NCBI GenBank assembly: GCA_022705125.1
Contig: JAKJFB010000103.1
Location: 1 to 8,600 of the forward strand
Reading direction: 5' to 3'
Length of the DNA: 8,600 nucleotides
From: Pseudomonadota bacterium
Lineage (GTDB): Bacteria > Pseudomonadota > Gammaproteobacteria > Pseudomonadales > UBA5518
The position numbers were made by a program, and so were the translations under genes. The notes under the pieces were generated by a model. It saw nothing but the letters and a program-made list of their open reading frames with translations, did not search any database and had not been told where the DNA came from. Below are positions 2,994 to 5,318 of this stretch, in pieces. How positions within the stretch are numbered: position 1 is the stretch's first letter; each line of letters opens with the position of its first letter.

Positions 2994-4061
2994 ATGCTGC
3001 AAACCCGCCTCACCGAGCTGCTCGGCTGCCGCTACCCCGTGGTGCAGACCGCGATGGGCTGGGTAGCCGACCCGAAGCTGGTCGCCGCGACCTGCAACGC
3101 GGGCGGCTTCGGTTTCCTCGCCGGTGCCACGATCCCGGCCGAGCAGATGGAGCGCGACATCCTGCGCACGAAGGAGCTTACGCAGCAGCCCTTCGGCGTG
3201 AACTTCCACATGTACCAGCCGAACGCGGCGGACATCGTCGGGCTCGTGGTGAAACACGGCGTGCGCGCCGTGAGCTACAGCCGCTCGCCGGGCAAGGAGT
3301 TCATCCGCAAGCTGAAGGATGCCGGGGTGGTGTGCATGCCGACGGTGGGCGCGGTGAAGCACGCGGTGAAGGCCGTGGAACTCGGCGCCGACGTGGTGAC
3401 CGTGCAGGGCGGCGAAGGCGGGGGCCACACCGGCTCGGTGCCCACCACGCTGCTGCTGCCCGAGGTGGTGCGCGGCGTGAAGGTGCCGGTGGTCGCTGCG
3501 GGTGGATTCAAGGACGGCCGCGGTCTGGTCGCGGCCATGGCCTGGGGTGCCGAGGGCATCGCGATGGGCACGCGCTTCCTGATGACCGCCGACAGCCCGG
3601 TGCCTCAGGCGACCAAGGAACGCTACCTCGCGTGCAGGAACCCGGCCGACATCATTGTCTCGACCGCGATGGACGGGATGCCGCAGCGCATGGTCATGAA
3701 CGAGATTCTCGCCGAGCTCGAGCGCGCCGGGCCGCTGAAGAAGCTGCTGATCGCGCTGCGCAACGGGCTGGCCTTCCGCAAGCACAGCGGTGCGACGATT
3801 TCGCAGTTGCTGCAATCCGCGATCGCGATGCAGCGCGAGGACGGGCTGACCCCCGCGCAGGCGATCATGTCGGCCAATGCGCCGATGATCATCCAGCGCG
3901 CGATGGTCGAGGGCAGGCCCGCCGAGGGCGTGCTGCCGAGCGGGCAGGTGGCCGGCGTGATCGACGATCTGCCGAGCTGCGCCGAGCTGATAGCACGTAT
4001 CGCCGCCGAGGCCGAGGAGTGCCTGGCTGCGCTGGCGAAGCGGGCGGGCCCGGCGGCTTGA
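2994..4061 (+). CDS. ipdC: Nitronate monooxygenase-like flavoprotein of steroid ring C/D breakdown (IpdC / ScdK-like)
   Basis: A 355-residue TIM-barrel flavoprotein of the nitronate monooxygenase/2-nitropropane dioxygenase superfamily. FMN-binding signatures are PVVQTAMGWVAD near the N-terminus (15-26), VQGGEGGGHTGS at 137-148, AAGGFKDGRG at 168-177 and GAEGIAMGTRF at 185-195. The region after 250 (LRNGLAFRK, then SGQVAGVIDDLPSC at 316-329) matches IpdC (Rv3553) as I remember it, including the Q-V-A-G-I/V-I/L-D-D-L-P-S-C end. In mycobacteria IpdC is reported to act as a dehydrogenase that places the ring double bond in the bicyclic CoA ester before EchA20 and IpdAB open the rings. The start is ATG 2994, with AGGA at 2981-2984; in-frame codons upstream run into ipdB. 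It ends the first operon block, before a 498-base gap. A generic nitronate monooxygenase is the fallback reading. Confidence 0.9.
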   Translation: MLQTRLTELLGCRYPVVQTAMGWVADPKLVAATCNAGGFGFLAGATIPAEQMERDILRTKELTQQPFGVNFHMYQPNAADIVGLVVKHGVRAVSYSRSPGKEFIRKLKDAGVVCMPTVGAVKHAVKAVELGADVVTVQGGEGGGHTGSVPTTLLLPEVVRGVKVPVVAAGGFKDGRGLVAAMAWGAEGIAMGTRFLMTADSPVPQATKERYLACRNPADIIVSTAMDGMPQRMVMNEILAELERAGPLKKLLIALRNGLAFRKHSGATISQLLQSAIAMQREDGLTPAQAIMSANAPMIIQRAMVEGRPAEGVLPSGQVAGVIDDLPSCAELIARIAAEAEECLAALAKRAGPAA

Positions 4062-4120
4062 ATTGTTCGTTCGCACCCGTTGCGTTGCAAGGCGTGTGGC
4101 ATCGGCGCTGAGGGAGCGTG

Positions 4121-4230
4121 GGCGCGGGAGCGTTTATGTCTGCTGGGACACGCCGTGAATACGTCCCTGTAGGCTCGACTGCGGCATCCCTGCCGCAGAC
4201 GGTCCCCGCAGCCACAAACGCTCCCGCGCC
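4121..4230 (+). repeat. REP-like hairpin element, copy A
   Basis: A 110-nt unit that folds on itself. The outer arms are 4121-4138 and 4213-4230; they are complementary at 17 of 18 positions (the one mismatch faces A4136 with C4215). Inside lies a 62-nt core, 4145-4206, which starts GGGAC and ends GTCCC. The core contains the tetranucleotide GTAG (4169-4172), then a perfect hairpin CTGCGGCA-TCCC-TGCCGCAG (4179-4198), lengthened by a CG/CG pair beyond an A-A mismatch. A GTAG head followed by an imperfect hairpin is the layout of REP sequences mobilised by RAYT transposases. The core recurs in opposite orientation at 4418-4479. No T-run follows, so it is not an ordinary terminator. Confidence 0.85.
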
Positions 4231-4394
4231 TCGGAGACGCAGTGCCAGTTGCAGGCATCCAGAGGCACAAGGCCTGACTGGTATGTCGAAGTTGATGTGA
4301 TCGCATTCCCGTCCCGGTGGGTCGATGTGTTCGGGCCGCGACGACTTTTGGAACGAGGAATTGAATTGGTGCCGGGTGCCACCGGCGTCGAGGT

Positions 4395-4502
4395 CGGAGA
4401 AGGGGGTGCAGTGTGACGGGACCGTCTGTCGCATGGATGCGACAGTCGAGCCTACAGGGATGTATTCACGTCGTGTCCCGACACACTGCACCCCCTTCTC
4501 CG
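4395..4502 (-). repeat. REP-like hairpin element, copy B (inverted relative to copy A)
   Basis: A 108-nt unit. The outer arms, 4395-4415 and 4482-4502, are perfectly complementary over 21 bases, and after one A-A mismatch six more pairs follow (CGGGAC with GTCCCG). The 62-nt core, 4418-4479, read on the minus strand, matches the core of copy A at 55 of 62 positions. Its inner hairpin is CTGTCGCA-TCCA-TGCGACAG on the minus strand (4426-4445). The outer arms share no sequence with those of copy A. The unit ends 57 bases before the echA20 start. Confidence 0.86.
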
Positions 4503-4559
4503 GCCGCATCAGGCCCGCCGCACTAGCAAGCGGCGAACGATCACCGCAGGAGAAATGCA

Positions 4560-5318
4560 ATGAGCAAACCATTCAAGACCACGATCAGCGAGGGCATCGC
4601 GGAGCTGGTGTTCGACCACCCGCCGGTGAATGCGTTCGACAGCGCGGGCTGGGCGGCGATCGCGGCGGAGATCGAGGCGCTGGGCGGCAACGACGACGTC
4701 AACGTCATCATCATCGCGGCCGAGGGGCGCGGCTTCTGCGCGGGCGTGGACATCAAGGAGCTCGCGGCCGATCGCAACCTGATCGTGAAGGTGAACAAGG
4801 GCAACTACGACACCTTCAAGGCGGTGCACCTGAATCCCAAGCCGGTGATCGTCGCCGTGCACGGCTTCGTGCTGGGTGGCGGCATCGGCATCAGCGGCGC
4901 GGCGGACATCGTGGTTGCATCCGAATGCGCACGCTTCGGCGTACCCGAGGTGGACCGCGGCGCGATGGGTGGTGGCGCGCACCTGCAGCGGCTGTTCCCG
5001 GTGCAGAAGGTGCGCTACATGTACTTCACCGGCGAGATGATCGACGCGCAGGAGGCGTACCGTCTCGGCGCCATCGAGCGCGTGGTGCCGCGCGATCAGC
5101 TGCGCGCCACGGCGCGCGATATCGCCGCGAAGATCGCCGCGAAGAGCCCGGCGATGATCCGGCTCGCGAAGGAAGCGCTGAACGGCATCGAGGACGGCAA
5201 CCTCGAGGACAAGTACCGCAGCGAACAGGGCTTCACGCTGGAGGCGTACACGACCAAGGACTCGCAGGAAGCGCGCGATGCCTTCGTGCAGAAGCGCGAC
5301 GCGAAGTTCGAAGGCTGA
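4560..5318 (+). CDS. echA20: Steroid ring-D hydrolase of the crotonase family (EchA20 / ScdY-like)
   Basis: A 252-residue crotonase-fold protein. It has HPPVNAFDSAGW at residues 20-31, the oxyanion-hole segments GRGFCAGVDIKE (56-67) and HGFVLGGGIGISGAADIVVAS (101-121), FGVPEVDRGAMGG at 127-138 and a late SEQGFTLE at 221-228. The pattern agrees with mycobacterial EchA20 (Rv3550) as remembered. That enzyme is reported to open ring D by hydrolysing a beta-diketone, a retro-Claisen type reaction. Of the two catalytic glutamates of true enoyl-CoA hydratases, the first (in GGGxE) is absent here, where the sequence reads GGGIG; the second is kept as Glu130 in PE. This supports a hydrolase rather than a hydratase. 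The start ATG 4560 has AGGAG 7 bases upstream. It is first gene of the second block; the dehydrogenase follows after 27 bases. A hydratase of unknown substrate is the alternative. Confidence 0.9.
   Translation: MSKPFKTTISEGIAELVFDHPPVNAFDSAGWAAIAAEIEALGGNDDVNVIIIAAEGRGFCAGVDIKELAADRNLIVKVNKGNYDTFKAVHLNPKPVIVAVHGFVLGGGIGISGAADIVVASECARFGVPEVDRGAMGGGAHLQRLFPVQKVRYMYFTGEMIDAQEAYRLGAIERVVPRDQLRATARDIAAKIAAKSPAMIRLAKEALNGIEDGNLEDKYRSEQGFTLEAYTTKDSQEARDAFVQKRDAKFEG

Follow-up and report, generated by a model that had tools for sequence, protein, structure and literature searches.

Sponge sRNAs of the CsrB/RsmZ type capture CsrA/RsmA with several GGA hairpin loops and come from one or a few dedicated genes. 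For the individual site, researchers have given the Rsm/CsrA motif 5'CANGGANG3' and the SELEX consensus RUACARGGAUGU (PMC6849547, in part). A proposed CsrA-binding RNA, TwoAYGGAY (RF01731), which the part of PMC4333381 available to us reports from Clostridia, has two hairpins with GGA loops in a CsrA-like context and a poorly conserved external stem, and judged from that part it is the nearest idea in print to the element described here. Among DNA repeats, the GTAG REPs and REPINs and the RAYT or TIRYT repeats are intergenic, high in copy number and palindromic, carry GTAG on one strand and form inverted dimers; a REP is 20-40 bp long with GTAG at its foot, and in S. maltophilia self-complementary TIR repeats with a GGGGWSAS motif lie near some Y1 transposases (excerpts of PMC3733652).

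The element analysed here shares features with each of these systems. It is an intergenic three-way junction of about 100-110 nt, in which a closing stem, P1, surrounds two hairpins, P2 and P3, with GGA loops. Unlike TwoAYGGAY, it is gammaproteobacterial, occurs in many copies per genome and has a linker, a bulge and a long P1 peculiar to it; unlike the CsrB/RsmZ type, it offers two GGA loops per copy in tens of copies, and the locus under study has no promoter or terminator match. It is also well beyond the REP size range, its GTAG lies inside P3, six nt from P2, rather than at the foot, the foldable strand is the one opposite to GTAG, the arms are copy-specific, and two hairpins sit within a closing stem. 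A relation to part of the TIR material in PMC3733652 is possible, the comparison being by description and with excerpts of that paper. At gathering score, no Rfam family matched over the element in 20 loci; the 16 matches with E<=10 in positions 3900-4700 all scored below that threshold (e.g. Ysr224 with 32.8 bits vs 70, and several miRNA precursors), did not include TwoAYGGAY and were taken as generic long-hairpin matches. In the portions of the open-licence literature that were covered, we recognised no publication describing the element.

The window, which is the whole analysed stretch of 8,600 nt, carries a plus-strand series of genes, and eight of its proteins were compared with family models. 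Matches were found to an Lrp/AsnC-type regulator, a CoA-transferase subunit, a FabK-like flavoprotein, an enoyl-CoA hydratase, a thiolase and two acyl-CoA dehydrogenases, one of them nearest to IpdE2, with only the hydratase and the thiolase passing the curated cut-off; the remaining protein had no family match. This gene set resembles the steroid C/D-ring degradation operon. The repeat pair sits in a 498-nt gap between a gene ending at 4061 and one starting at 4560, and 4062-4559 contains no match to a sigma-70-like promoter or terminator. Copy B, with its GGA strand on the operon strand, is located just 5' of the enoyl-CoA hydratase gene; the GGA strand of copy A is antisense. A repeat search aligned A with B over 69 nt at 86% complementarity, 211 nt apart. 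The earlier note had described two inverted cores matching at 55/62 positions, each between complementary arms (21/21 in copy B, 17/18 in copy A), and our recount gave the same figures. Compared with 200 dinucleotide shuffles, both copies form much better folds (z -6.8 and -10.1), and no shuffle does as well. As a separate observation, GGGACGUAUUCAC on the GGA strand (4152-4174 minus, 4450-4472 plus) is complementary, with a single bulge, to GUGAAUACGUUCCC of 16S rRNA, a stretch used for universal primers; at the variable Y a G-U pair would be retained, and the complementarity could be chance.

Searching relatives with the core, as the earlier note had proposed, gave 26 BLAST hits in the nearest genome, a sister species (G001), and at least 118 stretches of GTDB contigs, so the core is not confined to this locus. 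With the conserved block as the pattern and up to 4 mismatches, 168 copies were found, and the complementary flanks seen in the window proved to be the rule: a copy's own left and right arms pair (score at least 10) in 144/168 copies, against 25/840 combinations of arms from different copies, leaving 24/168 with weaker arms. Of the 168 copies, 70 were in register and had both arms and P2 well paired; removal of 20 with similar arms left alignment A1, with 50 non-redundant copies aligned gap-free over 98 columns on the strand with GAGCCTACAKGGA. Alignment A2 holds 33 matches in 30 genome loci that were picked by model R1 and aligned to it. The positions of the two window copies in this framework are listed in Table 1.

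Table 1 Parts of repeat copies A and B in the window
Feature	Position	Strand	Basis
Copy A, whole element	4127..4224	- (GGA strand)	Model R1, 98.8 bits, E 4.2e-22; not in R1 training set
Copy B, whole element	4400..4497	+ (GGA strand, same strand as flanking genes)	R1, 102.1 bits, E 6.7e-23; among 50 R1 training sequences
Copy A, P1 3' arm on GGA strand (plus-strand left arm)	4121..4149	-	Inverted repeat with 4202-4230 (90%); A1 columns 76-98 = 4149-4127
Copy A, P1 5' arm on GGA strand (plus-strand right arm)	4202..4230	-	Inverted repeat with 4121-4149; A1 columns 1-23 = 4224-4202
Copy A, hairpin P2, loop GGGA 4190-4187	4176..4201	-	Alignment A1, covariation, RNAalifold, R1
Copy A, hairpin P3 with UUCAC bulge, loop GGGA 4167-4164	4152..4174	-	Alignment A1, covariation, RNAalifold, R1
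Copy B, P1 5' arm	4392..4422	+	Inverted repeat with 4475-4505 (94%); A1 columns 1-23 = 4400-4422
Copy B, P1 3' arm	4475..4505	+	Inverted repeat with 4392-4422; A1 columns 76-98 = 4475-4497
Copy B, hairpin P2, loop UGGA 4434-4437	4423..4448	+	Alignment A1, covariation, RNAalifold, R1
Copy B, hairpin P3 with UUCAC bulge, loop GGGA 4457-4460	4450..4472	+	Alignment A1, covariation, RNAalifold, R1
Spacer between copies A and B	4231..4391	.	GGA strands of both copies point outward from the spacer

The structure and the strand that folds are well supported. In A1, P1 (columns 1-23/76-98) shows two-sided compensatory changes at 23/23 pairs with 95.5% of cells paired (pairing percentages in A1 are biased upward, as its copies were picked for well-paired arms and P2), and P2 (columns 27-34/39-46) shows two-sided changes at 7/8 pairs. 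RNAalifold extends P2 by 24-25/48-49, where two-sided changes also occur, and P3 by 51-53/71-73 around a conserved UUCAC bulge. P3 itself (columns 54-57/62-65) is nearly invariant in A1; its conservation there and in the 168 copies, unlike that of P2, is partly by construction because the block was the search pattern, and in A2 it has two-sided changes at 3/4 pairs. Over the whole structure, 94.1% of A1 cells are paired vs 56.4% in shuffles and two-sided cells number 644 vs 178, with 0/500 shuffles reaching either value; for A2 the figures are 96.7% vs 58.0% and 433 vs 115. The GGA-strand consensus is GAGCCUACAKGGAYGUAUUCACGGCGU. P1 is of fairly uniform length, its arms ending at a median distance of 28 nt from the block (10-90% range 23-32) in copies where they pair well; its pairing is kept and its sequence is mostly copy-specific. 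Among 40 copy pairs of the sister species with block identity of at least 26/27, median arm identity was 0.28, and it reached 0.6 or more in 3/40, whereas many Luteimonas and Methylotuvimicrobium copies have arms in common. Spreading of whole units followed by drift would be expected to give this pattern.

Going beyond the earlier note, we found that one strand is preferentially kept able to pair and that it bears the two GGA hairpin loops. On the GGA strand of the non-redundant set, mismatches in the arms were G.T 37 vs A.C 11, A.G 19 vs C.T 3 and G.G 12 vs C.C 0, in total 68 vs 14 (p about 1e-9 if independent), and the same contrast in the model-drawn A2 was 24 vs 3. The redundant set (3432 aligned arm positions, copies with well-paired arms), read on the block (GTAG) strand, gave A.C 125 vs G.T 18, C.C 30 vs G.G 0 and C.T 49 vs G.A 5, in total 204 vs 23. 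The seven outer P2 pairs agree with this bias (A.G 10 and G.T 6 vs A.C 2). At the loop edge of P2, the pair is A.C eight times, opposite to the bias, yet a C at that N fits the Rsm/CsrA motif. A one-strand mismatch bias of this kind marks the GGA strand as the one required to fold, whether in RNA or in single-stranded DNA, and we consider it very probable that the element is a structured, one-strand element kept by selection. The folded molecule is likely to be RNA, but taken as an orphan structure it could equally serve as single-stranded DNA.

Comparison with the sister species shows how this structure has behaved at a single locus. Both copies lie there between the same two genes, and the block-to-block distance is 298 in the window and 297 in G001, despite a diverged spacer. 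The copy-A core is 61/62 identical, the single change falling on the first N of the P2 loop, and the copy-B core is 56/62 identical over aligned positions plus one indel, compared with 264/342 (77%) at fourfold sites. At the level of sequence, this shows the copy-A core to be strongly conserved between the sister species at this locus. The 23 P1 pairs were compared for copy A, the register of copy B being spoiled by the indel: 18 were unchanged, 3 had changed and still paired, 1 was newly paired and 1 was still unpaired. The distal arm of copy B differs between the two species and is again self-complementary in each. The earlier note had offered two accounts of the unrelated arms. One was that they belong to the element and are remade with pairing kept, and it is supported both by the covariation across copies and by these changes at one locus; thus, the arms drift under a pairing constraint and resemble neither inherited palindromes nor shared baggage. 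The other was that the core inserts into pre-existing palindromes, which should then occur at orthologous sites without the core. In three congeners (G003, G004, G005) the same gene neighbours enclose neither copy, and no such palindrome was found in these gaps, which are too diverged to align or to define the element ends; the similar arm extent across copies also speaks against it. By eye, these gaps contain short REP-like palindromes beginning GTAGG, indicating that repeats of more than one family are drawn to this gap or tolerated in it. A wider version of the same account, in which the core inserts into palindromes or terminators, or strand-symmetric template switching equalises the arms, leaving a fold without a role, would explain why copies with near-identical blocks have wholly different arms and why the distal arm of copy B differs between the two species yet stays self-complementary. 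However, a symmetric process does not predict a one-strand mismatch bias, and together with the fairly uniform arm length, the scarcity of T-runs behind the arms and the three unoccupied sites this makes the account highly improbable. Intrinsic terminators were also considered and rejected, as TTTT within 12 nt after the arm occurs in 7/126 copies on the block strand and 5/126 on the GGA strand, and the window gap has no terminator match.

What the GGA strand presents is a pair of loops fixed as CA(NGGA)NG, with 20 nt between the GGAs. GGA is found in the P2 loop of 50/50 and the P3 loop of 49/50 A1 copies, and in 33/33 for both loops in A2. The full motif 5'-CANGGANG-3' occurs in 46/50 (P2, outside the search pattern) and 49/50 (P3, inside it) A1 copies, and in 32/33 for each hairpin in A2, where the only pair of each hairpin that never varies is the C-G of the motif. 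On the P2 side, CANGGANG lies within 45 nt in 116/168 copies vs 4 after shuffling, and CUACAKGGAYGU in P3 nearly spells the SELEX consensus RUACARGGAUGU. In a control with the family masked, GGA was found in 13/91 intergenic tetraloop hairpins, 9 of them in CA-NG context, and this control is not clean because, of nine such hairpins inspected, at least five are diverged family members. From this agreement with the motif, CsrA/RsmA is probably the partner of the predicted binding loops. A structured RNA with two GGA tetraloops could also act through another RNA-binding protein, in RNase protection, in stabilising mRNA 3' ends or in pairing with another RNA; the structural evidence as a whole fits such roles equally, the copies are intergenic and often near gene ends, and the loops nearly always have G or U as their first N, a preference which the motif does not explain, which is no CsrA signature and which we counted against CsrA. 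Nevertheless, the letters that do not vary in the two loops coincide with those of the Rsm motif and csrA is present in nearly all carriers, and we regard a role apart from CsrA as quite improbable.

The core had hits in 15/55 relatives, and the GTDB stretches come from Halopseudomonas, Marinobacter, Luteimonas, Methylotuvimicrobium, Microbulbifer, Stenotrophomonas, Rheinheimera and others. Model R1 found the element in 73/369 sampled Gammaproteobacteria genomes, in 17/55 relatives, with up to at least 72 matches per genome, and in 32/398 genomes drawn from the phylum, all 32 being Gammaproteobacteria in a draw whose share of other classes is not given. Because at most 11, 75 and 10 candidates were scored per genome in these three sets, respectively, the copy numbers are lower bounds. 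Among viral contigs, 38 stretches contained a 15-mer of the block, and none gave the block (up to 4 mismatches) with enough flank. A csrA gene (PF02599) was found in 67/73 carriers and in 16/17 carriers among relatives. The six carriers without a hit, of which only one (G256) is at least 90% complete and five, including G001, are incomplete, were counted against CsrA; the G001 genome is 88% complete, and its congener G003, also a carrier, has a hit. Among genomes at least 90% complete, a hand count found the element in 59/279 with a csrA hit vs 1/34 without (Fisher p 0.009, confounded by phylogeny), so the association is suggestive. By eye, copy number and csrA paralogue number showed no relation in the 17 carriers. 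The genome with the most matches (G020, 72 of the 75 candidates scored) has nine CsrA-family hits.

Copies often lie close together, and the 37 close neighbours comprise 26 inverted with the GGA strands outward, 2 inverted with them inward and 9 in tandem; at C1:94440-95636 of G048 (L184, L198, L209), six copies follow one another in tandem, repeating about every 227 nt. The preference for one inverted arrangement resembles that of REP dimers (PMC3733652, in the excerpts used), and the element may be considered a REPIN/TIR-like non-autonomous DNA element, whose folded single-stranded DNA is the substrate of an HUH (Y1/RAYT) or other transposase, whose inverted pair transposes, and whose loops and stem are kept as only recognisable copies spread. 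Dispersal between genes in high copy number, presence or absence between congeners, the whole units with common arms in Luteimonas and Methylotuvimicrobium, the GTAG on the block strand and GGGGAC-type ends, which fit the GGGGWSAS described for TIRs of some Y1 transposases in those excerpts, are all consistent with it. However, according to the part of PMC8266576 consulted, the strand bound by TnpAREP is the one with GTAG and not the complementary one, and here it is the complement that is kept foldable. The block search gave 0 in the first 30 of 50 Y1_Tnp loci from sampled genomes, and R1 over the Y1_Tnp loci gave one clear match (L211, in G020 with its at least 72 copies) and one weak match (L222), with none of the 50 flanked on both sides of the transposase gene. 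The carriers G059 and G062 (2/19 examined) and G045 have no Y1_Tnp match, and at a fixed locus the conservation of the core exceeds what would be expected from spreading alone. We therefore consider a REPIN/TIR-like DNA element the unlikely reading. Of the earlier wording that the element is mobile or structural, the second term is established by the fold, and the first is implied only by dispersal and by presence or absence between congeners. An autonomous element was looked for where cores lie 1.2-1.7 kb apart (L067, L113), but by eye the ORFs between them look like ordinary genes.

According to a crude gene caller that reproduces the window genes, 0/136 copies lie inside called genes. Within 100 nt after a same-sense gene, the block strand starts in 41/136 copies and the GGA strand in 12/136; because the GGA strand is thus often antisense to the adjacent gene, a simple 3'UTR-sponge picture is weakened, and the GGA strand might instead be transcribed independently or reached by read-through coming from the opposite side. 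We also observed by eye that a second unit is nested on the opposite strand at L101, L111, L119, L133 and L175 (P2 loop) and at L115 near 1301, consisting of two hairpins with GGA tetraloops, of GCCA-KGGA-YGGC and TGC-AGGA-GCA type. A different element of similar plan, with long closing arms, a CA-UGGA-UG hairpin and a GGA-rich hairpin, was seen in Luteimonas weifangensis (L121 near 7622).

Taken together, with a probability of roughly 0.6 we read the element, from sequence evidence, as a dispersed structured RNA and putative dual CsrA/RsmA-binding element whose copies spread and were then kept. The two GGA loops would form a dual site for one CsrA/RsmA dimer, and P1 would hold them in a stable and fixed geometry. 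Copies lying within transcripts, or transcribed alone, could recruit or titrate CsrA, so that the element may serve CsrA/RsmA as a landing site or decoy throughout the genome; after spreading, copies would have been kept and their arms would have drifted by compensatory change. More tentatively, a self-spreading RNA might have placed tens of dual CsrA/RsmA sites that host selection keeps, which would turn the genome into a distributed Csr sponge or wire new transcripts into the Csr network. The nested P2 unit and the Luteimonas variant, as related GGA-hairpin units, would then make this a class beyond one family. The one-strand mismatch test is a simple general means to find the functional strand of a palindromic repeat. 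If our reading is right, the palindromic-looking intergenic repeats of many Gammaproteobacteria include a conserved structured RNA with two predicted regulator sites in tens of copies per genome; Csr/Rsm titration would then have to be counted differently, genes would have a route to join the Csr network, and the old question of what keeps intergenic repeats would become directly testable.
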